IMG/VR virus record: IMGVR_UViG_3300017770_000140
Location: 1 to 25,466 of that record
Direction: 5' to 3' (one strand)
Origin: a virus
DNA: 25,466 nt
Within the stretch, counting starts at the first letter, position 1; each line of letters starts with the position of its first letter. Below, one piece after another: positions 6,849 to 21,100 of the stretch. The position numbers and the translations under genes were made by a program. A model generated the notes under the pieces. It was not told the DNA's origin. It made no database searches and saw only the letters and a program-made list of their open reading frames with translations.

Positions 6849-7295
6849 TTATCCTTCTTGAGTCATTTTCCAATCACCATCTTTATTGACCCAAGCGCAA
6901 GCTTTTCGTAAACCTGATGTACTGAATCTATGGTCTCTTTTATTAAAAAAGAGTTCAATGTCTCGTTTACGGCAAATATCTTTACCTGTAAATTCTTTAT
7001 CTCTATATTCATCACCTAAAATACGAACATCAATATGATACAATTCCAAAATATCCATAAGGTCTCGCTCAGAGTTATAAGGAATAATCTCGTCGACATA
7101 TCCAATTGCTTTAAGCTGTGTATATCTTTCAACAATTGTTTGTATAGGTGGGTTCTTTTCTTTAGGTCTATCTAATGCAGGGTCCATTTGTAATCCTACC
7201 ATTAAATAATCACATTGTGCTTTAGCATCTCTTAACATCTGTACATGACCTGCATGTAATAAATCAAATGCGCTACATGTAAAACCAATTCTCAT
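6849..7295 (-). CDS. Cytidylyltransferase-like nucleotidyltransferase (GCT/TagD type)
   Basis: Encodes 148 residues of the small HxGH nucleotidyltransferase family (glycerol-3-phosphate cytidylyltransferase TagD-like), which joins a nucleotide to a phosphorylated alcohol or sugar. HAGH is at residues 14-17 after the N-terminal MRIGFTCSAFDLL. ILGDEYRDKEF and the second motif HRFSTSGLRK, equivalent to the family's RTxGISTT-type loop, follow. Substrate cannot be read from sequence. An in-frame TTG at 7307 would add four residues, but the ATG at 7295 is preferred because GGAGA lies 5 bases before it and overlaps the would-be TTG extension. The gene is wedged between gp15 and gp16, neighbours in T4, and carries its own consensus sigma70 promoter, so it looks like an acquired cargo gene. 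Confidence 0.9.
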   Translation of the reverse strand: MRIGFTCSAFDLLHAGHVQMLRDAKAQCDYLMVGLQMDPALDRPKEKNPPIQTIVERYTQLKAIGYVDEIIPYNSERDLMDILELYHIDVRILGDEYRDKEFTGKDICRKRDIELFFNKRDHRFSTSGLRKACAWVNKDGDWKMTQEG

Positions 7296-7330: not shown

Positions 7331-7359
7331 ATTATAACACATTTTAAAGTGTTTGTCAA
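7331..7359 (-). promoter_or_regulatory. Consensus sigma70 promoter with palindromic spacer (P1)
   Basis: The -35 TTGACA (7359..7354) and -10 TATAAT (7336..7331) are both perfect matches to bacterial housekeeping consensus, with an exact 17-base spacer, AACACTTTAAAATGTGT. The spacer has approximate dyad symmetry (ACAC and GTGT arms, 6 of 8 pairs matching). It lies in the gap between the gp15 stop and the nucleotidyltransferase, giving a predicted leader of roughly 30 bases. It is very like the promoter at 16848-16876. A regulator binding the dyad would block polymerase. Early or host-polymerase expression is inferred. Confidence 0.88.
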
Positions 7360-7361
7360 CC

Positions 7362-8180
7362 CTAATCTGTAGGTGCTGTATTCGCAATTTTATCTGCGTA
7401 ATCCCAATTATCATCAAATTCAATCAAGCTATAATCAACTGAGAGGTCTGGGTTTGTTGTAGCTGTATTAGCAGCTGTCATACCTGGTTGTAAGGTATAA
7501 AATTCTTCTGGCGTTGTATTTGTATCTGAATCTGTAGCATATCGTATATCGATAAACTTGATAATACCAGTTTCTTTTTCTGGCCCAAAGAACCATGCTT
7601 TCATAGTAAAGTTAAGTGTATAAACAATACTCCTTCGCTCTTCAAAATTACCTTCGTAAACTTCGTCCATTGATACACCGCTTAAAACAAGTGGAATATC
7701 AAGTGGTTCTAAACCATCAATTAATTTTACTGTTCTTGTATAGTCTGGGTTAAAGAATGGAACAATTTGTTCTAATAACTTTACTGCATCCTCTTGGTAT
7801 TTAGTCATAATATACAAAGAGAAATCTAAATTATATGGTGTGCCACCGTATACGAAATTTCTTCCACCTGTTATATCGTCTGTAACAGTTTTTCGTATTT
7901 TACTAATTGGTGATAATTTACGGTCAGAATCATATTGCATATTCGTCATTTCAAACGACATACGAGGTAAGTTAATTGCTGACTTAGCTTTAAAATCTGG
8001 ATTCTGTTCAAGTCGAGATAATATCTTTTGGAATGGTGCGTAAGATATAGGAACAATCATTGATTGTTGTGTAACACCACCATTGTCAACTCTTTTAACT
8101 TGAAGCTGATTAAAGTATGTACCAAATAAAGCTACATATTTTCGAGTAGTTCCGTTATAAAAATAATTTGCTATGGCCAT
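7362..8180 (-). CDS. 15: Tail completion / sheath terminator protein gp15
   Basis: Encodes 272 residues, the same length as T4 gp15. This protein forms the hexameric ring capping the tail tube and sheath and joins the tail to the neck. Recognisable segments are the N-terminal MAIANYFYNGTTRKYVALFG, QMTNMQYDSDRKLSPI-like text near residues 75-90, and YGGTPYNLDFSLYIMTKYQE followed by EQIVPFFNPDYT, typical of T4-like gp15. The C-terminal 40 residues (after ATDSDTNTTPEE) are low in conserved features. The ATG overlaps the gp14 stop as TAATG, consistent with coupled translation. It is the last gene of the gp13-gp14-gp15 block. Confidence 0.95.
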   Translation of the reverse strand: MAIANYFYNGTTRKYVALFGTYFNQLQVKRVDNGGVTQQSMIVPISYAPFQKILSRLEQNPDFKAKSAINLPRMSFEMTNMQYDSDRKLSPISKIRKTVTDDITGGRNFVYGGTPYNLDFSLYIMTKYQEDAVKLLEQIVPFFNPDYTRTVKLIDGLEPLDIPLVLSGVSMDEVYEGNFEERRSIVYTLNFTMKAWFFGPEKETGIIKFIDIRYATDSDTNTTPEEFYTLQPGMTAANTATTNPDLSVDYSLIEFDDNWDYADKIANTAPTD

Positions 8181-8869
8181 TAGGAATCACTTATAGTAAT
8201 GTTTTCTGTGAATGGGTCTTGGTCAGAGAAGTCAAGAATGTTATCGCCTTCTTGCTCAAACGTAAAGTTATCTGCTAACGAGTCATAACCTTGAGCATCA
8301 GTATTAGATAAACCTTGAAGTGTTGTAGTAACTGTAGTATCGATATCATCAAAGTAATCATCAATAGCTGGGAACCCAGTATTGAATCTTTGACCACTAT
8401 ACTCAATTAACTCACATCTCATATCTTGTACTTGTAATGCTCCACTTTGATAGAATACGCTTTCATGTTCTACGAATTTAATCTCAAACATTTTTTCGTT
8501 AAGTGGGAAGTATATTAAATCGCCTTCACGAGGTCTTATAATTTCAACAACTTCACGAGTTACATATTTTTCGAATGTTCTATTTGCTACGCAGAACGTA
8601 ATACTATCACGAATTTGTAAACCGAATTTAGATAGGAAATCGCCTTCACCTTCAAAGCCATCAACATTTTTAACATAAGCTTCGAACTGAAACATTTCAT
8701 CGTATATTGGCAAGTCGTCTTCGTTTAGTACTTCGTCAACAGCACCAAGAGAACGCTTGATGTACATTACATCTACGCCATAAATCTTAATGCTCTCAAT
8801 AACTAAATCGTCAATTAAATTTTGCTCGTTAAAGTTATCGTAGTTTCTAAAGAATACATTTGTTGCCAT
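8180..8869 (-). CDS. 14: Neck protein gp14
   Basis: Encodes 229 residues, somewhat shorter than T4 gp14 (256). With gp13 it forms the neck connecting filled heads to tails. The N-terminus MATNVFFRNYDNFNEQNLID and following DLVIESIKIYGVDVMYIKRS are characteristic of gp14. GDLIYFPLNEKMFEIKFVEH and the downstream FYQSGALQVQDMRCELIEYS also fit. The acidic C-terminus (NILDFSDQDPFTENITISDS) is common in the family. The gap from gp13 is 9 bases and the ribosome site is weak, with GGAT well upstream of the ATG, so coupling to gp13 translation is likely. Confidence 0.95.
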   Translation of the reverse strand: MATNVFFRNYDNFNEQNLIDDLVIESIKIYGVDVMYIKRSLGAVDEVLNEDDLPIYDEMFQFEAYVKNVDGFEGEGDFLSKFGLQIRDSITFCVANRTFEKYVTREVVEIIRPREGDLIYFPLNEKMFEIKFVEHESVFYQSGALQVQDMRCELIEYSGQRFNTGFPAIDDYFDDIDTTVTTTLQGLSNTDAQGYDSLADNFTFEQEGDNILDFSDQDPFTENITISDS

Positions 8870-8878
8870 AGCAGTATG

Positions 8879-9844
8879 TTATCCAATAAAGTTGTAGGTG
8901 AGTGGTTGGTAAGCTCTGATCGCTTCTTCTTCCATTGCTTTTCTTTCTTCTCTTGCTTCGGAAAGAATTTGTTCACCGTTAAACGAAACACCACCAACAA
9001 GCTGCATATTAGTAAATTTAGTTAAATTGAGTCCCCATTGTTCTTTAATTAAAACAGTAGCATAATTTTGTAACCAACGATCACCCCAAACGTCACCATA
9101 AGTATCACCATCAATAACATCATAAGCTTCAACAATAATAAATTGTCCAACTGTAAGAAAGTCTTTAGTAACATCGATGTGTAATTTGTTGACATGTTTG
9201 TTATAACGAATCATTGGTTTACCTACAAGAATTTCTTGTAAGAATTGAAGATGGCTCATTGCCATATAATAATTCTGAACATTATAACCAGTAATATCTT
9301 GAATGTTATTTAAAACAAATTGGTACTGAACGTTAAATATACCTGAACCAGTTGATAAGCTTGTGGTTAATGGGAATATACCTGAAATGCCTAAAAGTGT
9401 CTCTGGTAAAGAGATATAGCCATTCTCTCTATCACCTCTCGTTACAGTTGTAATAGTAGCTGTAACTCCAGAGTTTTGACCTGTTACTGTTTCGTTTGCT
9501 TGAAATTTAATTAATTCTTTGTGAGTAAGATTGTCATATCTTAATGTTGTACCAGTAGAGTCTTTAGAAACTTTAGCAGTAGCACCTGATGTTCCACCGG
9601 TTACCGTTTCACCAAATACAAAATTTCCTGCAACTGATGCATCAAGTTCTAATACACTACCAGTAATTTTATGCTTTAAATAAACTTGTTGACTTCCGTT
9701 ATAGTGATAATCACGCCAAAAAGAAACAGCTTCGTCAATACGATCTTCTACTTGTTCTTCGGCAACATTAATCTCAATAACTGGAGCACCAATTTTTCTA
9801 AGAATATAATCTTTAAAAAGTTCTCTTGAGTTTGGTATTGACAT
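8879..9844 (-). CDS. 13: Neck protein gp13 with an internal repeat insertion
   Basis: Encodes 321 residues, close to T4 gp13 (309) in total. The N-terminus MSIPNSRELFKDYILRKIGA, then EINVAEEQVEDRIDEAVSFW and RDYHYNGSQQVYLKHKITG match marine gp13. Conserved sequence resumes at ENGYISLPE (about residue 140) and continues through MAMSHLQFLQEILVGKPMIR, ITKDFLTVG-like text and YGDVWGDRWLQNYATVLIKE to the end, LTYNFIG. Between the two lies an extra stretch of about 75 residues (62-136) with a duplicated Gly/Thr-rich motif, described separately. The start has AAAGAGA and a late element 27 bases upstream. It heads the neck gene block. Confidence 0.94.
   Translation of the reverse strand: MSIPNSRELFKDYILRKIGAPVIEINVAEEQVEDRIDEAVSFWRDYHYNGSQQVYLKHKITGSVLELDASVAGNFVFGETVTGGTSGATAKVSKDSTGTTLRYDNLTHKELIKFQANETVTGQNSGVTATITTVTRGDRENGYISLPETLLGISGIFPLTTSLSTGSGIFNVQYQFVLNNIQDITGYNVQNYYMAMSHLQFLQEILVGKPMIRYNKHVNKLHIDVTKDFLTVGQFIIVEAYDVIDGDTYGDVWGDRWLQNYATVLIKEQWGLNLTKFTNMQLVGGVSFNGEQILSEAREERKAMEEEAIRAYQPLTYNFIG
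9437..9661 (-). repeat. Inserted duplicated beta-type motif inside gp13
   Basis: Residues about 62-136 of gp13 hold two copies of a motif: FVFGETVTGGTSGATAKV (75-92) and FQANETVTGQNSGVTATI (114-131), 39 residues apart. The insertion separates HKITG from NGYISLPE, which I recall being nearly adjacent in other marine gp13 proteins. The FxxGETVTGxTSGATAxV pattern recurs in marine phage virion proteins and probably forms a surface-exposed beta domain on the neck. Exact borders are approximate. Confidence 0.65.
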
Positions 9845-9870
9845 TTTTTTCTCTTTTACCTATATTATAT

Positions 9871-9878
9871 TATTTATT
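9871..9878 (-). promoter_or_regulatory. Candidate late promoter (AATAAATA) for the neck genes
   Basis: The minus strand reads AATAAATA 27 bases before the gp13 ATG, directly after the stop of the preceding virion gene. It differs from T4 consensus only at the first base and would drive gp13, gp14 and gp15. Confidence 0.6.
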
Positions 9879-10895
9879 TTAATAAACACTGTCAGCAGTT
9901 GTTTGAGCTCTCATGCGTATTGATTTTACTAGAGTATCACCAGAAGTAGCTGTTCTTGCATAAAAATCTAATCGGCCATCTAATGTATAAATGGCTGATG
10001 AATCACTCATAGTACCAGTTGTTTGTATAAACGCAAGAGTTACACCAGTGCTCATGTCATTTGCTGTTGTTTTCCAACCAGAATCCATAGCACTTAATGT
10101 AGTATTATTAGGAACTGCAGTTCCGTCAAAAGTTTTTACAGGCTGAAGTGCACCACCGCCACCGGTTCCAGATGATGATGAAGTTGTTGGAGTAAATACT
10201 GCTCGTATTCCAGTAATAGCTGCTGTTGCATTAAATGAGTAATGTGTTTCAGAAGGTACACTACGAATTACTGCATAATAAGTATCATCATTATAAACTT
10301 CTTGATAGGCTCCTACTGTATATGTATAGTTATCACTGTCACCAGAAACGGAGTCGCCTGGAGACCAGGTTGAACTTAAAACATAACCAGCATCATATAC
10401 TTTTACACTGTTGTAGTAAATATCATCTCTTACTGTATCATTATAACCTTCGCCGTCTACAACTTGCCGCTCTCTTACGCCGTAAGAATAAGTACCTAAG
10501 CTTCTGTTATATTGTGAACCATCATCTTCACCAGTAGCACCTTCGAAGCTATTTGTAGCAGGACTTCCTGATGCAGCAGGTCGGTTTGAGTATGTGGAAT
10601 CAGATGTACCAGTTTCTCCAGTTGCACTACTATCATCAGTAACTGTAATTCTAAGACCATTTGTGCCGGACCTGAACCATTTTATGCTACCGTCCGCGGT
10701 CGCAGCGCAATTTCCTGGTGCATTTGCAAATCCAATTTGTAACCAACGAACACCAAGGTCGTTACTACCTGCGTCGTCTATACTTCTAATTTCTTCTGTT
10801 ACAACAGTACCGGCTATGCTATTACCAGCGCTTATTCCGCCAGTTCCACCAGTTACTTTAAAACCTGAACCTTGTTGAAATGAATGTGTTGGCAT
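9879..10895 (-). CDS. Putative virion/appendage protein, unknown function
   Basis: Encodes 338 residues rich in Ser, Thr, Gly, Asp and Tyr with no hydrophobic helices or cysteine clusters, a composition typical of phage tail appendage proteins. The N-terminus MPTHSFQQGSGFKVTGGTGG is not the MAIKV type of its neighbours, although it ends the same gene cluster. Visible parts are a Tyr-rich middle (YNRSLGTYSYGVRERQVVDG, YYNSVKVYDAGYVLSSTWSP), a Ser/Gly linker near residues 238-248 (TSSSSGTGGGG), and a C-terminal beta-rich part (DGRLDFYARTATSGDTLVKS). The AAGGAG site before the ATG at 10895 is strong and lies in the 9-base gap after the preceding gene. A baseplate or fibre role is inferred from context only. 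Confidence 0.85.
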   Translation of the reverse strand: MPTHSFQQGSGFKVTGGTGGISAGNSIAGTVVTEEIRSIDDAGSNDLGVRWLQIGFANAPGNCAATADGSIKWFRSGTNGLRITVTDDSSATGETGTSDSTYSNRPAASGSPATNSFEGATGEDDGSQYNRSLGTYSYGVRERQVVDGEGYNDTVRDDIYYNSVKVYDAGYVLSSTWSPGDSVSGDSDNYTYTVGAYQEVYNDDTYYAVIRSVPSETHYSFNATAAITGIRAVFTPTTSSSSGTGGGGALQPVKTFDGTAVPNNTTLSAMDSGWKTTANDMSTGVTLAFIQTTGTMSDSSAIYTLDGRLDFYARTATSGDTLVKSIRMRAQTTADSVY

Positions 10896-10904
10896 AATAT
10901 CTCC

Positions 10905-11747
10905 TTAAGCGTTACCTATGTATCTCATCTCGTAATAACCTGTATCTAATATTGTTGAACCACCTGAGTTAGATGAAATTTCAACTTTAATTACACAATT
11001 TTCATCGGCATATGTGGTTATGTCTCTAGAATCTCTTACTTGAAACTCTCTATTAGACGTTAATGCAATCCACGAATTAAGAGTATCACTATCAGAAGTA
11101 CTTATGTTTTTAGTACCACCAAAATTTGTTACTCTAATATAATATGTTTGTGACGGTGTAATATTATTCCATTGAGTTGATGAATGTAGATATCTACCTT
11201 GACCACCAATATTGTATACAGATTCATATTTGTAAATATTTCCGTCTGAAGCAAATTCCCAGCCCATAACTAAATCATTATTATTACTACCAGGAAAGTC
11301 GGTGAAAGTAATTGGAGTACCAGTTGTTCCAGATAGTGCTACAGCTTCTGTAGGTTGAGATGACTGAGCATCAAATCCAATTGCTGTTGCATCAATTCTA
11401 CCAACACTGTGGTGTATCATATGAATTTGCCATTTTCTATAAGAAGACCAAGTTGGTTCTGTATCATCTTCCCAATTAAATGAGGATGGAAATGTTGGTG
11501 TGTGGCCAGTAGAACTTGTATCTAAACATAAAATAGCAGACTTGCCGCCACTAGCTGTGGTGCCTGAACTGGTGAATGTTGTTGCACCAGATAAAGTTAC
11601 AGTCATAAATGGAGTAGTAAAGTTAATATTAGTTGTAATAGTAGCTGGTGATGGATAAAACTCACCGAACTTACCTGTTGCATCTGTAACGTTTAATAAA
11701 CCTCTTGAGTCGTCTATTACTTCTGTTCCGTTTACTTTAATTGCCAT
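10905..11747 (-). CDS. Putative appendage protein, MAIKV paralogue 3 (last in array)
   Basis: Encodes 280 residues and is one of three paralogues in a row. All three start MAIKVxGTxVI, a common opening of marine T4-like structural proteins, and share three internal landmarks. Here these are LCLDTSSTGHTPTF (about residue 90), EPTWSSYRKWQIHM (about 113) and DATAIGFD (about 136). The C-terminal half is unlike that of its sisters (ITFTDFPGSNNNDLVMGWEF, RYLHSSTQWNNITPSQTYYI), suggesting a conserved attachment half and a diversified tip. The ATG overlaps the stop of the small upstream ORF as TAATG. Function is unproven; decoration of tail fibres or the head is possible. Confidence 0.86.
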   Translation of the reverse strand: MAIKVNGTEVIDDSRGLLNVTDATGKFGEFYPSPATITTNINFTTPFMTVTLSGATTFTSSGTTASGGKSAILCLDTSSTGHTPTFPSSFNWEDDTEPTWSSYRKWQIHMIHHSVGRIDATAIGFDAQSSQPTEAVALSGTTGTPITFTDFPGSNNNDLVMGWEFASDGNIYKYESVYNIGGQGRYLHSSTQWNNITPSQTYYIRVTNFGGTKNISTSDSDTLNSWIALTSNREFQVRDSRDITTYADENCVIKVEISSNSGGSTILDTGYYEMRYIGNA

Positions 11748-11917
11748 TATTCTTCTGAGCCTCTTTTAGCATCAACAAGTTGATACATTTTTTTCATTAA
11801 CTGTTGTTCATTTTCTATCTCATCATCATGCTCTGGAATCATGTGATAGGTGTCAACAATTTCATTATTAGCATTTGTTGATGAAATTTTAACTTGTCTG
11901 AGTTGTCCTGTTTTCAT
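11747..11917 (-). CDS. Small protein, 56 residues, unknown function
   Basis: A short frame from ATG at 11917 to a TAA that overlaps the next ATG (TAATG). It encodes MKTGQLRQVKISSTNANNEI followed by VDTYHMIPEHDDEIENEQQL and MKKMYQLVDAKRGSEE. An AGGAA ribosome site lies 6-7 bases before the start, overlapping the preceding gene's TAG. The C-terminal half is strongly charged and predicted helical. It exactly fills the gap between two MAIKV paralogues with coupling signals at both ends, which supports a real gene. No family recognised; a chaperone or linker for the flanking fibre-like proteins is only a guess. Confidence 0.78.
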   Translation of the reverse strand: MKTGQLRQVKISSTNANNEIVDTYHMIPEHDDEIENEQQLMKKMYQLVDAKRGSEE

Positions 11918-11926
11918 ATTTAATTC

Positions 11927-12766
11927 CTACGGTGTATGGTGAGCTGTTAGCTCGCAGGGTATAGATACTAATTCTGTTTGGTCTGAAGCTCTTCTAATTT
12001 TTAATGTTCCATCAAGTACATTATTAGACGCATTTGTTGATGCATCATAAATTTTCCACTCGCGACTTGTACCTAATCCTTCCCACGTATTATTACCTGC
12101 TGTAGATTGGTCTGCTCCACCGTTATTAGTAAATGTATAATTAAAGTTACATTCGTAGTCGCTTGCGCTTCCTGAAAGCAACCATGTGTATCCGTTATTT
12201 TGTGCTCCATTTACACTACCTTGTGTTCCGGAACCTGTTAAACTCAAGGTGCCTGTAGAATTTAATCTAACAACACAATTACAGTTTCCGCTTTGTGTTC
12301 CCGAGTTTGCACTTATATCAATTGCACTTGGTAAGGAAACAGTAGGGCCGTCTCCCCAACTTGTAGATATTACACTTACTGTATCAGCTGACCAACATGT
12401 TAGTCTGTGTAACCAATATCTTGCACCAGTCCAAGTTGGTTCTGTATCATTTGGATATAATATTGTTCCACCGCCACTTACACTAAAACTTTGGTCGTGG
12501 CCAGAATCAGATGCGTCTACAAACATCGTCATTTGTTTACCTGTTCCTAGGCTAGTTAGAGTCCAATCAACATCACCAGTTGCTTGTGCTGATGTTCCTA
12601 GGTCTTTATGCGAACTGTCAAAGCTCACACTAAAAGCGCTGCCACCGTAATCACTAGTAGTAGTAACAGATAAAGGCTGGAAATCTGTATAAACGCCCGT
12701 AGCACCGGTAACAGTAAACTTTCTTGTGTTACTTATTACTTCTGTTCCGTTTACTTTAATTGCCAT
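11927..12766 (-). CDS. Putative appendage protein, MAIKV paralogue 2
   Basis: Encodes 279 residues, starting MAIKVNGTEVISNTRKFTVT. It shares the array landmarks MFVDASDSGHDQSF and DTEPTWTGARYWLHRLTCW, then diverges: the DATAIGFD landmark of its sisters is replaced by VISTSWGDG. The second half is Gly/Ser/Thr/Asn-rich with repeated short beta-like stretches (GTLSLTGSGTQGSVNGAQNN, YECNFNYTFTNNGGADQS) and ends ELTAHHTP. A consensus AAGGAG site precedes the ATG. It is the most diverged of the three copies, consistent with diversification after duplication. It is probably a structural protein displayed on the virion; the role is inferred from composition and context. Confidence 0.86.
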   Translation of the reverse strand: MAIKVNGTEVISNTRKFTVTGATGVYTDFQPLSVTTTSDYGGSAFSVSFDSSHKDLGTSAQATGDVDWTLTSLGTGKQMTMFVDASDSGHDQSFSVSGGGTILYPNDTEPTWTGARYWLHRLTCWSADTVSVISTSWGDGPTVSLPSAIDISANSGTQSGNCNCVVRLNSTGTLSLTGSGTQGSVNGAQNNGYTWLLSGSASDYECNFNYTFTNNGGADQSTAGNNTWEGLGTSREWKIYDASTNASNNVLDGTLKIRRASDQTELVSIPCELTAHHTP

Positions 12767-12776
12767 ATATTACTCC

Positions 12777-13736
12777 TTAAATCGCAGGCATGTTGCCCCA
12801 GTTTGCTGTAGCTGAGATTGACCCTAGAGGTACATCGCAAGTAGCATATACTGTACCTGCAACGCTGTCTACAATTTTAATTCTAAAATCTGGGTCTAGA
12901 CCTGTAAAGCTTGCACTTGTTTGGGTAGATGAAGGGTCGCTATTTTGTGATACAGCTTGCCATCCAAAAAATAAACTACCTGACGTTGGAACAGTATAAT
13001 ATGAACCACTAGAATAACCATCATTAGTTGGAAGTGGTCCATAGCTATATCCACCAGAAGGGTTTGTGTTACTGCCATTAACATTTTGGCTTTGTACATT
13101 ATATTGCGCAGTAACTGCAGTAATATTACTTAATCCTGTATAGGTAGCATAAGATGTATATTGGTTTGAGCCACTATTAAAGTTTCCAGAACCATGAACT
13201 ACATTAATTCTGTTATTTGATGTATCATGTTGAAAAGAAACCCATACTGCTGACCACGGTTCGCTGAAAGTTCCGTAACCACTTACTGATGTATCCCAGG
13301 CGTTATTAAATGTCCAGTCGTTAAAAGCTGAAGAAGTTGAAGATGGTTCATCAAATCCAATAGCTGTAGCTCTTACATCAGCACCATTAGAGCCAGTGCA
13401 TGTAAATGTGATTTGCCAATGGCGATTATTTGACCATGTTGGTGCAACACCAAATAAAACTTCTGAACCAAATGTTGGAGTATGGCCAGATGTTGATGTA
13501 TCTAAAAGTAATGTTGCAGTAGCACCTAATTGAGTATTTGTGGTTGTAAACGTGACATTACCAGACATAGCCAACTTCATAATTGGTTTATGAAAATCAA
13601 TAGCTGTTGTTATTGTGTCAATGCCATCAGGATGGAAGTTAGAATAAACTCCGTTTAATCCTGTGCCATAGTTTGTACCTGTAATGACTTTAATAGTGTC
13701 ATCAATGACAGTTGTGCCACTTACTTTTATCGCCAT
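12777..13736 (-). CDS. Putative appendage protein, MAIKV paralogue 1 (first in array)
   Basis: Encodes 319 residues, the longest of the three paralogues. It starts MAIKVSGTTVIDDTIKVITG and carries LLLDTSTSGHTPTF, APTWSNNRHWQITFTC and RATAIGFDEPSS, close to paralogue 3 in the N-terminal half. The C-terminal half is Tyr/Asn/Ser-rich (NRINVVHGSGNFNSGSNQYT, NPSGGYSYGPLPTNDGYSSG), a composition common in receptor-binding tips. It heads its transcription unit: AAAGGAGA precedes the ATG and a perfect TATAAATA late promoter lies 40 bases upstream, right after the glycan cassette ends. So the array is expressed late, independently of the cassette. Fibre or decoration function is inferred. Confidence 0.86.
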   Translation of the reverse strand: MAIKVSGTTVIDDTIKVITGTNYGTGLNGVYSNFHPDGIDTITTAIDFHKPIMKLAMSGNVTFTTTNTQLGATATLLLDTSTSGHTPTFGSEVLFGVAPTWSNNRHWQITFTCTGSNGADVRATAIGFDEPSSTSSAFNDWTFNNAWDTSVSGYGTFSEPWSAVWVSFQHDTSNNRINVVHGSGNFNSGSNQYTSYATYTGLSNITAVTAQYNVQSQNVNGSNTNPSGGYSYGPLPTNDGYSSGSYYTVPTSGSLFFGWQAVSQNSDPSSTQTSASFTGLDPDFRIKIVDSVAGTVYATCDVPLGSISATANWGNMPAI

Positions 13737-13775
13737 CCTCGTCTCCTTTGACTATTAGCGTTTATATTTAATTAC

Positions 13776-13783
13776 TATTTATA
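13776..13783 (-). promoter_or_regulatory. Late promoter (perfect TATAAATA) for the MAIKV array
   Basis: An exact TATAAATA on the minus strand sits immediately after the stop codon of the nucleotidyltransferase-cupin gene and 40 bases before the ATG at 13736. It separates late virion genes from the glycan cassette upstream. Confidence 0.75.
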
Positions 13784-14545
13784 TTAATCACGACGTTCTA
13801 TATCACTTTCTTCTAATATATCGCCTAACCATACTTCGATTACTTTAGCAGATTCTTTACCAACATTGGTTGCTTTGTGCCATGTTTCTTTTGGAATATC
13901 AACGCTCATACCTGTATGGTAAATCTTTGTATGTTTTGACCCAGGCATTCCATCACCTCTATCGAGTTCCATTAAAACAGAACCACTTACAATGTGCCAA
14001 TGTTCTGACCTGTGTGTATGGCGTTGATCGCTTAATGATTGACCAACATCAAAACTTAATTCTTTAACTTGCCAATGGCCATTAGAATCTAATATTTTAT
14101 ATGTTCCCCACTTACGCTGTGTTGTAGGTTGAGCCCATTCTTTTAATATCCAACTTGAAGAATTTGCTTTATTGTCTCCACCGACACTAAACTCAAACGT
14201 AATACCTTCTACTGCCATTTCAGGAATGTTATCTGGTGTTCTATCGCCACCGTTTACAAATATAATAGTGTCATTAGGATATAATAGTTTAACTGTTTCT
14301 AATGCATGAATAGCACTGTCATCAGAATCATTAAAAGAAATTACTTCGTCAACACAAGCAAGTTCTCTTACAATAGCAGCGCGTTCTTCCCAAGGCATAA
14401 AATATCTACCTTTTTTTCTTGTTAACCATTCATCAGAATTAACGCCAACAATTAATCTTGTACCAGACAATGAAGCGTCTTTTAAATATTTAATATGGCC
14501 AGAGTGTATTGGGTCAAAGCCACCTGTTGCTACTACAGTAATCAT
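13784..14545 (-). CDS. Bifunctional-looking nucleotidyltransferase (RfaE/HldE-C type) fused to cupin
   Basis: Encodes 253 residues in two domains. Residues 1-135 form an HxGH nucleotidyltransferase: ATGGFDPIHSGHIKYLKDA (HSGH at 14-17), LIVGVNSDEWLTRKKGRYFM and the C-terminal NSSSWILKEW, most like the ADP-heptose synthase (RfaE/HldE) nucleotidyl domain. Residues about 145-248 form a cupin of the type-II mannose-6-phosphate isomerase kind, with QRHTHRSEHWHIVSGSVLME; H176, H178, E181 or H182 and H223 are candidate metal ligands. The fusion suggests activation plus isomerisation or epimerisation of a sugar phosphate, but the substrate is unknown. AAGGAT lies 6 bases before the ATG, and the gap to the preceding gene is 3 bases. 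It is the last gene of the glycan cassette. Confidence 0.88.
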   Translation of the reverse strand: MITVVATGGFDPIHSGHIKYLKDASLSGTRLIVGVNSDEWLTRKKGRYFMPWEERAAIVRELACVDEVISFNDSDDSAIHALETVKLLYPNDTIIFVNGGDRTPDNIPEMAVEGITFEFSVGGDNKANSSSWILKEWAQPTTQRKWGTYKILDSNGHWQVKELSFDVGQSLSDQRHTHRSEHWHIVSGSVLMELDRGDGMPGSKHTKIYHTGMSVDIPKETWHKATNVGKESAKVIEVWLGDILEESDIERRD

Positions 14546-14548
14546 AAA

Positions 14549-15778
14549 TTAATCCTTCATATCATTCATAAAATAATCCCATACAAAATTAATATTTTTC
14601 AGATTAGCAATAAATTTCTTTGGAACATCAATGACATCAGGATGTACGTACCAATCTTCGTATGAGTGTTGTGGTGAAAATGCAACATCATTAATTACAA
14701 GCTGATAACCGTGTTTCTTTAATATAGTTCTTGCCTTATCTCTTATATCAGTACCAAGCCTGTAAGTATCATGCTCGAATGTAATGACTCCAAATTTGTG
14801 AGTATCGAAAGGTATATTTTCTAAAATTTCTATTGAAGCTTCATCACAATCAATTTGCAAATAATCAGTTACTGGGTCTACACAATGTAAATTAAATAAG
14901 TTAGTAAAATCTAATTCTGTAGCATCAGTACAAATTACTGTATTGTTTCTATTCTCTTTAAAATTATAACATAGAGCTTCTGAATTGTCAATAGAAATAC
15001 CTTTCCAATTAAACATTCCTTCTAATAAAGCTGTATTATTATGTACGAATGGGTCACCAGAGCCAATCTCTAAATAAGAACCATTTCTCTTTCCGTTATA
15101 TAAGGATAGTACAAAAAGGTCTTGGTAATGTTTAGAATGATTCGTAGTAATGGTTTCTAAACCATCAAATTTAAATCTAAATCTTTCGTAATCATCATCA
15201 ATATAAGGTATTGTATCTGGGTACCAAAGTTGACCTACCATTTGTTCAACTTTATCAGTATAACCTTTCATGTCATATCTATGCTTTAAATTAAAGAATG
15301 CATGTTTTCCAGTTTGTGTACCACCGATAAACCATGTTGCTAAAGCTTGAAAATATAACAATCCTTCATATTCACCATAACCGGGAATATCTAAAACCCA
15401 TTCTTCATCATAGCCTTCATTATACCACTCTAAAGCTAAGTTGGTGTGCATTAACATTGGTTTCCACTCTTGTAGAGTTTCTAAATATTCTGCTAAAAAG
15501 AAATGAGCTTCTGGTCTATAAGGCATTAACGCTATAGCATCTTGGTATGCAGTTTTAACAGTCCATTGTCTATTTTTTTGGCGTTGGTATGCTCTTGCAA
15601 TTCCAATCATACATTCGTATTGGATTTCTTTATCTTCACTAATGTCAGCTGTTTTAAGATATAAAGATACAGCCATAGCTCCTTGTTCAAGTCTATCGTA
15701 TTCTCTTGCAAGTTTAAGTAACTTATGAGTATTTTTAGGGTCTAAACAGTGTTCGTTTAAAAGTTCTTGTATCATCAT
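14549..15778 (-). CDS. TPR-like domain fused to FkbM-type methyltransferase
   Basis: Encodes 409 residues. Residues 1-190 are helical with TPR-like pairs (KLLKLAREYDRLEQGAMAVS, ECMIGIARAYQRQKNRQW, AHFFLAEYLETLQEWKPMLM), the kind of array often attached to glycosyltransferases. Residues 215-400 look like an FkbM SAM-dependent methyltransferase: GSYLEIGSGDP (motif I, 233-243), KGISIDNS (259-266, acidic residue after the second strand), ATELDF, DYLQIDCDEASIEILENIPF (305-324) and FEHDTY (334-339). FkbM enzymes O-methylate sugars and polyketides. Sugar methylation fits the neighbours but is inferred. The start is ATG-ATG at 15778 and 15775, following TAA of the upstream gene with AAAGGA, so translation is probably coupled. 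I see no glycosyltransferase domain. Confidence 0.85.
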   Translation of the reverse strand: MMIQELLNEHCLDPKNTHKLLKLAREYDRLEQGAMAVSLYLKTADISEDKEIQYECMIGIARAYQRQKNRQWTVKTAYQDAIALMPYRPEAHFFLAEYLETLQEWKPMLMHTNLALEWYNEGYDEEWVLDIPGYGEYEGLLYFQALATWFIGGTQTGKHAFFNLKHRYDMKGYTDKVEQMVGQLWYPDTIPYIDDDYERFRFKFDGLETITTNHSKHYQDLFVLSLYNGKRNGSYLEIGSGDPFVHNNTALLEGMFNWKGISIDNSEALCYNFKENRNNTVICTDATELDFTNLFNLHCVDPVTDYLQIDCDEASIEILENIPFDTHKFGVITFEHDTYRLGTDIRDKARTILKKHGYQLVINDVAFSPQHSYEDWYVHPDVIDVPKKFIANLKNINFVWDYFMNDMKD

Positions 15779-16816
15779 TTATCCTTTCGCTACAAAATCA
15801 AAAAATACCTTTTCAGGTACTTTAAGTATATACGTACCATTATCTTGGTAGCCATAAGCTATTACTACATATCCATCTAAGAACATCATACCAGTAGCAA
15901 ATTCAATATTGTATTCATATCCTGTTGTGTGGTCAATCTGTGTGCCCATAAAATGGAAGTCTTTGGTATAATGTATTATATTCCAATCTTCGTCCCACAC
16001 AATAACTCTGTGATTGTAGTGACCATCCTTACGCTGAAAGCTATCTTTATATAAGTCAGTTTCGTGAGTTATAGTCATACGACGACCTTGACCTATAGGA
16101 TGTACTTGAGTACCACCTCTTAGGTCACGATAAAGACTTTCAACTTTACTGTCTTCGTTTAAATGAACTGTAGTTGTTGTACGAGTTTCTGCATCGTATT
16201 TAATAACTTCTGTTGGATTACACCATTTAACAAAATGCCATGGCATATCAATAACAGGCATCCAATTCTTTTCGCAGAAAGTTGCATCATCGCCTGGTGC
16301 AGGAATAGGATGTCTTCCTACTTCTTGCCATTCATTGTCGATAAATTCAATTTCGCACATTTCCATACGACCTGTGCCTTTATCATCGTAAGCATCTCTT
16401 CGTACTCCACATAAGAATAATCTATTTTCCCAATTAAATAGTCTACCATCTTCAAGTCCAATAAAGTTCCAGGTAGGTTCACCTGTATCTAAATTCATTT
16501 TAATACGACCTGCAGATAGAATATTCATATTAGCATCAAGCTCACACATAATATTGTGAGTAGTTAAACTAACATCGTTTTCTGGATGGATATATTGAAG
16601 TGGGCCCCATAAATGTGGGAATTTTTTACCTTCTGAGTGATAAAGAGTATAATTGACATGACGAACATTCAATAGTATACGACCCTCGTGCATAAAAATC
16701 GAGGGGTTCATAATACCCGTTTCGCCTGTTAACTCTTTTGGAAGGGTTATTGGATGTATACTTCCACCACGCTTAAGTGCGTAATGGACTAATCCATGAT
16801 GACGTAAATCATGCAT
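15779..16816 (-). CDS. GH130/GH43-like five-bladed beta-propeller glycosidase or phosphorylase-like protein
   Basis: Encodes 345 residues from ATG at 16816. Blade landmarks are MNPSIFMHEGRILLNVRHVN (36-55), GLEDGRLFNWENRLFLCGVR (120-139), EKNWMPV (182-188), RGGTQVHPIG (233-242) and EFATGMMFLDGYVVIAYGYQ (305-324). EDxR, EKNW.P, RGG and EFxTGxxxxxxxVxxxYG are typical of GH130-like and fructosidase-like propellers that accompany glycan genes; catalysis itself is not shown. An in-frame TTG at 16876 would add 20 residues but is the -35 box of the promoter, so cannot be in the transcript. The ATG has GGAGA 4 bases upstream. It is the first gene of the cassette. Cell location and substrate are unknown; no signal peptide is seen. 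Confidence 0.85.
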   Translation of the reverse strand: MHDLRHHGLVHYALKRGGSIHPITLPKELTGETGIMNPSIFMHEGRILLNVRHVNYTLYHSEGKKFPHLWGPLQYIHPENDVSLTTHNIMCELDANMNILSAGRIKMNLDTGEPTWNFIGLEDGRLFNWENRLFLCGVRRDAYDDKGTGRMEMCEIEFIDNEWQEVGRHPIPAPGDDATFCEKNWMPVIDMPWHFVKWCNPTEVIKYDAETRTTTTVHLNEDSKVESLYRDLRGGTQVHPIGQGRRMTITHETDLYKDSFQRKDGHYNHRVIVWDEDWNIIHYTKDFHFMGTQIDHTTGYEYNIEFATGMMFLDGYVVIAYGYQDNGTYILKVPEKVFFDFVAKG

Positions 16817-16820
16817 ACTT

Positions 16821-16825
16821 TCTCC
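16821..16825 (-). promoter_or_regulatory. Ribosome binding site deciding the propeller gene start
   Basis: GGAGA on the minus strand lies 4 bases before the ATG at 16816 and downstream of the sigma70 -10 box. It fixes the start at 16816 and excludes the longer TTG-initiated frame, which begins inside the promoter. Confidence 0.78.
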
Positions 16826-16847
16826 ATTATGTAAAACATTATTGTAT

Positions 16848-16876
16848 ATTATAACACACTTTCGTGTGTCTGTCAA
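16848..16876 (-). promoter_or_regulatory. Consensus sigma70 promoter with perfect palindromic spacer (P2)
   Basis: TTGACA (16876..16871) and TATAAT (16853..16848) are perfect, with a 17-base spacer GACACACGAAAGTGTGT. Spacer positions 2-17 form an exact inverted repeat, ACACAC-GAAA-GTGTGT. The axis of symmetry is the same as in the promoter at 7331-7359. The predicted transcript starts about 25 bases before the ATG at 16816. A dimeric repressor binding between -35 and -10 is the simplest reading of the dyad. Confidence 0.88.
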
Positions 16877-16880
16877 CTAT

Positions 16881-16888
16881 TATTTATG
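16881..16888 (-). promoter_or_regulatory. Possible late promoter (CATAAATA) just upstream of P2
   Basis: The minus strand reads CATAAATA spanning the stop codon of the preceding gene (TCA TAA ATA), 65 bases before the propeller ATG. It could give late expression of the cassette in addition to P2, but because it includes a stop codon context it may be coincidental. Confidence 0.35.
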
Positions 16889-18116: not shown

Positions 18117-21100
18117 TATTTGTTCTCCATTTTATTCATTATATTATATACCATTTCTTCAAGTTTGTCAATCTTTTCTTGTTGACTATTTATTAATTTT
18201 TGTTGGTCTTCAACAATCTTGTGTTGGTCCTTAATACCTTCAACAAGTAAACCTACCATCTTCGGATAATCAAGTCCGTATTGGTCAACTTCTTCAGCAT
18301 AAGATACAACTTCAGGTACAATTTCTTTAACTTCTTGAGCAATTAAACCAAGTTGTCTTCCTTTGTAAATCTCGTCGCGATCATCAACTAGATGTTCTCT
18401 AGTTTTTCTATCATAGTAAACACCGCGTAATTGTAATACTTTATCTAAAGCACCGTCAATTGTAATGATATTTTCTTTATCACGAGCATCTGAGTAAGCA
18501 ACAACGTTACCATTACAGTAAAGCGAACCGTTAACTCGCATACGATAACCAGAAACCGTTGAAGATGAAGCAAAGCCAGTACAGTTGTTGCTACGGTTGT
18601 GATAGAATACCCATCGGCCGCCGCCTTGCATATAGATACCACCAGAACCATTACCATCGAACATGAGATGTGGGTCCCATGTAGGCTCATGGAATGATAA
18701 ACCGTACCATCCACTTCTGTTACCTCGAATATTCCAAGCACCGTAACTTGTGTGACCGTTAGGTTCAAAGTGAGCACCGTTATGACTTGAGTAAATACCT
18801 TGGTTAGAACCAGCAACTCTTAACCATGTGTTTGCGTATGTATAACTTGAACCACCATTGATTTGGAATCTTACAGTTCCACTGCTGTAGTCATTGAAGA
18901 ATCTCATACCACCGTACGATGGGTTACCTGCAAATGACATACCAGTATGATATTGTAATACCAAGTCTGGATATGGATAACTCCAACCACCAGATTCCTG
19001 GAATCCGAATGAGTATGGTGAACTTGCTCTTGTTATACCAGAGTTACCACCAGCGTATGGTGTATTAATTCTGTTAACAGTTAGCTGATTGAGCCTAGAA
19101 GTACTTGCATAGTCTCCATAATATCCAGTATTATTCTTATCGTAGAATATGTTAGAACGAATATCATTTTGGTACATCTGGGAACCACCCTGTACCTGAA
19201 TCATTTTATTAAAGTAGAAGTTACTTCTATCAGAGTAAATGTGTGCGTGACTACTGTTAGCAGGGCCGAACTCAATATATCCGTATGGAGTCTGATTTCT
19301 CATACCCCAAGAACCAGCTCTCATGTAGTAACTACCATTACCAAAGTCAATTTCTTGTAGTCTACTTCTGCCGGCTGGATTTGCATAGTAACCAGTATTA
19401 TTTGAATCGTAGTAAATGCCAGCATACATTGCGCCGCCATTAGTACTATTCTCATCTAATACAGGGATTGTTCTCCAAGTTCTAAATCCTGACCAGGAAG
19501 AACGGAATCTTAAGTTGGTAATTGGTCCACCTGCCATCTGCCAACCATATCTTGCACTACCATTAGAATAGTGATATGCTTGAACACCAACCCAATGCGA
19601 AGTACCGCTTGGTTGGTTAGCTGGGTTACTCCAAGTATCGAAGAAGCCTGAACCCCAGTTACCAACTGTGTTCATATCAATTCTACCCCAACCTTTGGAA
19701 CCTGTCCAATAGTTTGAGTCACTAGTAATATTTGGTCGTCTACCGTAGTTACTTATTGCTCCACTTCTTGTATGACCAGGTAAGCCAATCATTGCTTGAC
19801 CGCGAGCAGTTAAACCTTGCCAGTTTGAATCACTATTTGGATTCATGTAATAACCAGTGTCGTTTAAGTCATAGAATATTGGAGCACGGAATGATGAATC
19901 ACTTTGTACATATCCATAATTAAAGTCGTGATATGAACCATTATAATATTGTAACCAACTACGAGTATTATCGTGTACACCAACATTGTTGCCTTCAGTT
20001 GACATCCAAGTCCATCTTGAACCAATACCGTATCCACCCCAACCATTTCGTCCGATATTATATGTTGATACGTTACCGTATGGGTTGCCTTCAGCTTGTG
20101 CACCACGTAATCCATATCCGTAATCTTGGAAGTAAAGACCAGAACCACCGTCTGCTCTAAACCAATCGTTAGCATATACTGCTCTTAGTCTAGATGTTGC
20201 ATCTGGGTCCATGTAGTAACCAGTGTTAGACCTTGCATAGAATACATTTGAACGGAATGAAGAAGTACTATAAGTATTACCATCCATCATTGCCTGGAAA
20301 GGCCAACCTGAAATACCACCTGTTCCTGCACCGTGATGGCCGACATAGAATCCTGTTGAACCAGTACTATTATTATTGTTCGAGTCAAGGTTAAAGAAGA
20401 TATCGTGATAAGAGTTAAATCTTAAATCGTCGGTTACACCACCGCCATTATCACGAGATGAAATACTGTGATAGTTAGAATCGTTTCCGTAGAATGTAAT
20501 AAAGTCACCACGATCTCTCATGTTCAACGTATCAGCTGTGACCGTTCTTAATGAAGCATCACCGCTTGAGTTATGTACATAGTAAGCAGTGTTGTTTCTA
20601 TCGTATAAGATATTGACTCTTAAGTCGTTCATATATGAAGTAGAAGCAAAGTCACCATAATAACTTGTATCATTACGATCGTAGTAAATTTGTGCTTGGA
20701 TTGCGTTATTTACATAAACTGTTCCACCAACATACCACTGTAAATATAGGTTATTACCTGAACGAGAATCTAAGTGTAAATTACCGTTTGTAGTAGCAAC
20801 ACAAGCTTCACTTGATACATTACCATTTGTACCTACGTATAAGTATCTGCCCCAACTTGGGTTAGGTCCATGTAATGTTCCACCTCTGAATCGCATTGCT
20901 GTGTTAGAAGTAGAGTTAAAGTCAGCTCTGTAAGTTGTATCATCTGAATCATAGAATATTGGAGCTCTAACATCACTAGTAGCACTTACACCAGGTCCAA
21001 TTAATCTACCGTCATTAGCAATATAAGACCTATCAGAACCGTTTTGTCTGAACTGAACAATTCTATTTGAGTTTCCGTTAGATACAATGTACCAACGGTT

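Follow-up and report, generated by a model that had tools for sequence, protein, structure and literature searches.

Probable early sigma70-type promoters before inserted genes in the late block of a marine T4-like phage, one with a probable late-RNA hairpin in its spacer

The window, by which we mean the whole stretch of 25,466 nucleotides analysed here (IMG/VR record IMGVR_UViG_3300017770_000140), comes from a marine T4-like phage whose nearest relative is phiM12 of Sinorhizobium. The large terminase most resembles those of Sinorhizobium phages phiM12, M7 and N3 (58%), and the genes around it are ordered gp15-gp16-gp17-gp18 as in phiM12, with some gene names assigned by position. phiM12 has no gene at the gp15/gp16 junction, where the window has a sigma70-type promoter (A) and a cytidylyltransferase-like gene. 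A second promoter (B) lies ahead of a run of three genes in the same direction. The features of the window are as follows.

6849..7295, minus strand: cytidylyltransferase-like gene behind promoter A (Pfam PF01467)
7331..7359, minus strand: sigma70-type promoter A (TTGACA 7354-7359, 17-nt spacer, TATAAT 7331-7336)
7337..7352, minus strand: partial dyad A (AACAC/GTGTT, 5-bp stem and 8-nt loop, flanking bases included)
13784..14545, minus strand: cytidylyltransferase plus cupin / mannose-6-phosphate isomerase-like gene, following the 409-aa gene
14549..15778, minus strand: 409-aa gene with a weak glycosyltransferase-family match, following the 345-aa gene
14963..14991, minus strand: TTGACA-N17-TATAAT within the 409-aa gene, without a dyad and perhaps fortuitous
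15779..16816, minus strand: 345-aa gene downstream of promoter B, resembling cyanophage proteins annotated as beta-mannosyltransferase and MGP protein
16848..16876, minus strand: sigma70-type promoter B (TTGACA 16871-16876, 17-nt spacer, TATAAT 16848-16853)
16854..16869, minus strand: dyad B (ACACAC-GAAA-GTGTGT)
16881..16888, minus strand: CATAAATA, a motif like a T4-type late promoter, 4 nt upstream of promoter B
18143..18171, minus strand: third sigma70-type promoter, no dyad, inside the tail-fibre ORF at its 3' end

An earlier note on this DNA had described promoters A and B and the palindromes in their spacers, and direct inspection and a pattern search found the boxes and dyads of both exactly as given there. 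Its statement that TTGACA-N17-TATAAT occurs twice was incomplete: the minus strand has four such sites, of which those at 14963-14991 and 18143-18171 lack a dyad, and a further match with N18 spacing lies on the plus strand. These five matches to TTGACA-N15-19-TATAAT compare with 0.07 expected in shuffles, so the promoters of the window are not a product of chance. The site at 18143-18171 is a credible promoter, located 26 nt ahead of the gene at 18116-17679; relatives G001 and G006 have a counterpart. Two marks of sigma70 early promoters are present, namely TTGACA and TATAAT separated by 16-18 nt beyond chance expectation, and a TGn extended -10. The note had also placed only sugar or glycan genes behind both promoters; at site A this holds for the first gene only, after which gp16-gp20 follow on the same strand.

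Both dyads are centred at spacer position 9.5, with six of eight positions paired at site A; at site B the arm is a perfect 6 bp. At least six of eight pairs are expected by chance at about 0.007 per spacer with the axis fixed and at 0.03 with any axis; with GTGT already fixed by the extended -10, the chance is 0.005. GTGT, the right arm of the dyad, corresponds to the TRTGn extended -10. Its TGn is constant in every allele of both sites, and the left arm is variable.

Promoters of this kind are not confined to the window, as eight related contigs contain between 2 and 28 perfect promoters each. In the larger contigs most are intergenic and have A-rich sequence upstream, and their spacers are alike within a lineage and different between lineages. 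Several of the lineages (L581-L611, G001-G007) have a near-uniform 17-nt spacer of their own in many early promoters, for example TTCATAAAGAACTATAG and TTTGCTTTGAGATGATG, and these spacers are conserved beyond the need of sigma70. Stems in the spacers are another matter: among 85 distinct perfect clade promoters, 6-bp stems were found three times versus about 1.1 in left-half permutations, which is not a clear excess, and the dyad therefore does not define the promoter class. The boxes and the right arm bear out the note's alternative of a standard early-promoter class; the dyad, which is not class-wide, does not. T4 early promoters have a UP/-35/TGn/-10 layout (PMC2988021). The promoters described here share with them the near-consensus sigma70 boxes, the TGn, the A-rich upstream sequence and extra conserved positions, but differ in that sites A and B lie inside a late block before inserted glycan genes and in that the spacers are lineage-specific.

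Homologues of the two junctions were collected by protein searches with the two downstream genes, without selection for the dyad. The site-A junction has a promoter in 21 of 77 relatives, representing nine alleles. GTGT precedes TATAAT in all nine, and the left arm reads AACAC in five, TTTGC in three and AGCAC (AAGCAC) in one. We found no left-right matching across the site-A alleles (P = 0.45), and ACAC is absent from its expected position in four of the nine with the boxes and GTGT retained. The site-A palindrome would then be a loose, non-covarying coincidence of the GTGT arm with one common sequence beside the -35. One site-A allele, AACACACAAAAGTGTGT (L419), is two bases from site B, and sites A and B are thus not clearly independent.

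The site-B junction has a promoter in 31 of 54 relatives, with 17 alleles. The test set consisted of 15 distinct spacers, each counted once after merging near-duplicate alleles. Paired forms include ACACAC-GAAA-GTGTGT, ACATAC-GAAA-GTATGT, TCACA-N6-TGTGA and ATAACACA-N4-TGTGTTAT, and the arm changes from ACACAC/GTGTGT to ACATAC/GTATGT to TCACA/TGTGA are compensatory. Upstream of some of these promoters is the T4-type late motif NATAAATA. In the window it occurs nine times on the minus strand (eight of them intergenic, just before genes) and never on the plus strand, so that late transcription probably covers the block. Site-B spacers fold better than their left-half permutations (P = 0.009), and stems of at least 6 bp are present in all seven alleles with NATAAATA just upstream versus two of the eight without it (Fisher P = 0.007); both P values ignore the shared ancestry of the alleles and are therefore optimistic. 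Two further alleles with NATAAATA pair the right arm with sequence downstream of it, as in ACGTGTTA-TAA-TAACACGT, where the pairing spans the -10. Some relatives (L506, L508) have NATAAATA at this junction and neither the sigma70 promoter nor the hairpin. The predicted RNA fold of the 71-nt region of site B has -12.3 kcal/mol (z -1.8). A protein dimer would hardly tolerate the combination of sequence change and register shift seen at site B, whereas a hairpin would, and from these comparisons of sequence a single hairpin at site B is modestly supported.

The earlier note had favoured a shared dimeric regulator, that is, a phage or host repressor or activator binding ACAC-N8-GTGT between the boxes, with the two promoters forming a small regulon. 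The identical axis at sites A and B and the recurrence of the same arrangement in other phages are in line with this proposal. ACAC-N8-GTGT is also the shape of the NrdR box. NrdR boxes are 16-bp palindromes that occur in pairs (PMC12051234, PMC9110341), with 14-17 or 24-27 bp between the two (PMC12051234). The dyads resemble them as 16-bp palindromes overlapping an RNA polymerase site, but each is a single box, the arms are not conserved, and the genes are not ribonucleotide reductases. An NrdR operator was rejected, as the genes downstream of sites A and B are not nrd genes and no paired second box was found at offsets of 29-33 bp (spacers of about 13-17 bp; best 3-4 of 8 positions). In bacterial genomes, mostly Clostridia, 10 of 64 matches are accompanied at 29-32 bp by another ACAC-N8-GTGT-like box, as expected of a real repressor pair, but none was found in the window at the offsets scanned. 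Clostridia promoters of the TTGACATACACTAxxxxTAGTGTTATAAT type (L129, L146, L148, L151, L160, L161, L166, L172), whose second such box is 29-30 bp upstream, stand before lipoprotein-like, zinc-ribbon-like and other genes, and look like a repressor regulon that is not limited to nrd genes. The exact promoter-dyad motif is also common in viral contigs, with at least 118 matches, a large share of them coding-like; amino acids can fix the arms in such matches, and these counts were therefore not used as evidence for a regulon. One perfect promoter-like form, TTGACAAACAC-N8-GTGTTATAAT, lies in the apparent C-terminal codons (DKHI..CYN) of a gene that immediately precedes DNA polymerase gp43 in T4-like contigs (L006, L011, L017, L081, L109, L114 and others). 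Neither the coding-like viral matches nor the paired-box bacterial matches resemble the window. The dyad is missing from the other window promoters and from most of the roughly 85 in relatives, and no regulator gene was seen in the window. The note had also looked to homologous promoters for a decision, and there the arms do not persist: at site A the ACAC is lost in the four alleles mentioned above, and at site B the arms are altered (ACATAC, TCACA) or shifted inwards. A regulon is therefore very improbable. It is less far-fetched, if still doubtful, that the dyads are coincidental and without function, reflecting separate preferences for TGTG before the -10 and for A/C-rich sequence after the -35. 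The absence of left-right matching at site A and of a clear stem excess clade-wide agree with this. So does a sample of phage promoters for which GTGT ahead of the -10 was the sole selection criterion, since ACAC is rare at their mirror position. It accounts poorly for site B, where pairing survives several different sequences.

The hairpin could also be the terminator of the upstream gene, nested in the promoter as a composite akin to the PeSL promoter-stem-loop cassettes of T4-like phages (Arbiol 2010, Comeau 2014, as cited in PMC4503421). As far as that citing account describes them, these cassettes share with our sites a compact sigma70 promoter and a stem-loop between tandem genes, gained and lost, and differ in that the stem here is nested between the -35 and -10 and lacks a U-tract. 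A promoter with a stem-loop between same-strand genes is found at site B and in weak form at site A. Recombination between PeSL cassettes shuffles genes; at the A and B junctions the promoter is seen in some relatives and not in others. RB49 has one clear case, with a TTCG terminator hairpin that starts 38 nt upstream of the -35 of a TTGACA promoter. Many phages do have hairpins with UUCG or GAAA RNA tetraloops in their sigma70 spacers, and each of the 22 testable UUCG cases follows a same-strand gene. One such stem, GGACC-TTCG-GGTCC, is followed by a T-run in E. coli phage VR26, where it has the shape of an ordinary terminator. At sites A and B, in contrast, no T-run follows either dyad and a terminator scan found neither; moreover, an upstream terminator was found for only 1 of 65 clade promoters, and the stability of stem B is modest. 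A nested terminator is thus an unlikely reading of the two sites.

Searches beyond the clade nevertheless showed hairpins in sigma70 spacers of unrelated phages. Among 44 distinct contexts of TTGACA-N6-CGAAAG-N5-TATAAT, four had stems of at least 6 bp versus 0.13 by permutation: site B, its covarying relative and two unrelated phages. Stems of at least 3 bp were found in 0 of 11 CTTTCG control contexts versus 9 of 44 with CGAAAG, a strand asymmetry of the loop that is suggestive but small. With CTTCGG loops, stems of at least 7 bp were present in 26 of 61 cases versus about 1.4 expected, many of them compensatory. The UUCG-loop form can be written TTG[ACAGGACC]TTCG[GGTCCTGT]TATAAT, has compensatory stems in several phage groups, and was found once per record in the 12 records checked. 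In L720-L811 (viral_contigs) and L865 (Aeromonas phage Ahp1) the spacer forms a perfect hairpin of 7-8 bp capped by a UUCG loop, and among isolates an Aeromonas Straboviridae phage has a nested hairpin with TATTGT as its -10. In Synechococcus phages ACG-2014b and S-RIM2 (L867, L868), TTGACA of the promoter ahead of the late sigma gp55 is itself in a palindrome with the spacer (TTGACA-N4-TGTCAA). Judging by sequence, a hairpin capped by UUCG or GAAA sits within a sigma70 spacer in many unrelated phages, as a variant of the known PeSL composites.

Taken together, we consider it rather probable that sites A and B are early promoters ahead of inserted genes, that GTGT is their extended -10 and not part of a shared operator, and that site B in addition encodes a late-RNA hairpin. 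By their sequence both belong to the class of strong host-sigma70, presumably early, promoters of this phiM12-like marine T4-type phage. They would serve host-interaction genes, for sugar nucleotides and glycans, that are inserted in late operons, and are gained and lost at these junctions as short cassettes. The hairpin at site B would probably be maintained in transcripts that enter the promoter from further up, their most likely origin being CATAAATA, the late-promoter motif immediately before it. In T4, late transcription starts about 6 nt after the late-promoter motif. A start at that distance from NATAAATA would fall inside the -35 hexamer of promoter B (~16875), which would make hairpin B the 5'-terminal stem-loop of the late mRNA, a few nucleotides in. 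Early mRNA from promoter B would lack the hairpin. Its most likely use would be protection of the 5' end of the late mRNA. As 93 other late-leader candidates were no richer in stems than shuffled sequences, a hairpin at the 5' end is not general among late transcripts, and such protection is proposed for this site locally.

More tentatively, several unrelated phage lineages may have bifunctional promoters whose spacer also encodes a hairpin for the upstream RNA, site B being the case in which that RNA is a late mRNA. If true, one 29-bp element would mark where an early mRNA starts and, for another transcript, the end or the 5' leader. On the main reading, the idea of a hidden regulon gives way to the simpler one of early promoters travelling with host-interaction genes into late operons. 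Compact, overlapping promoter/hairpin elements of this kind could pass for a promoter or for a terminator.
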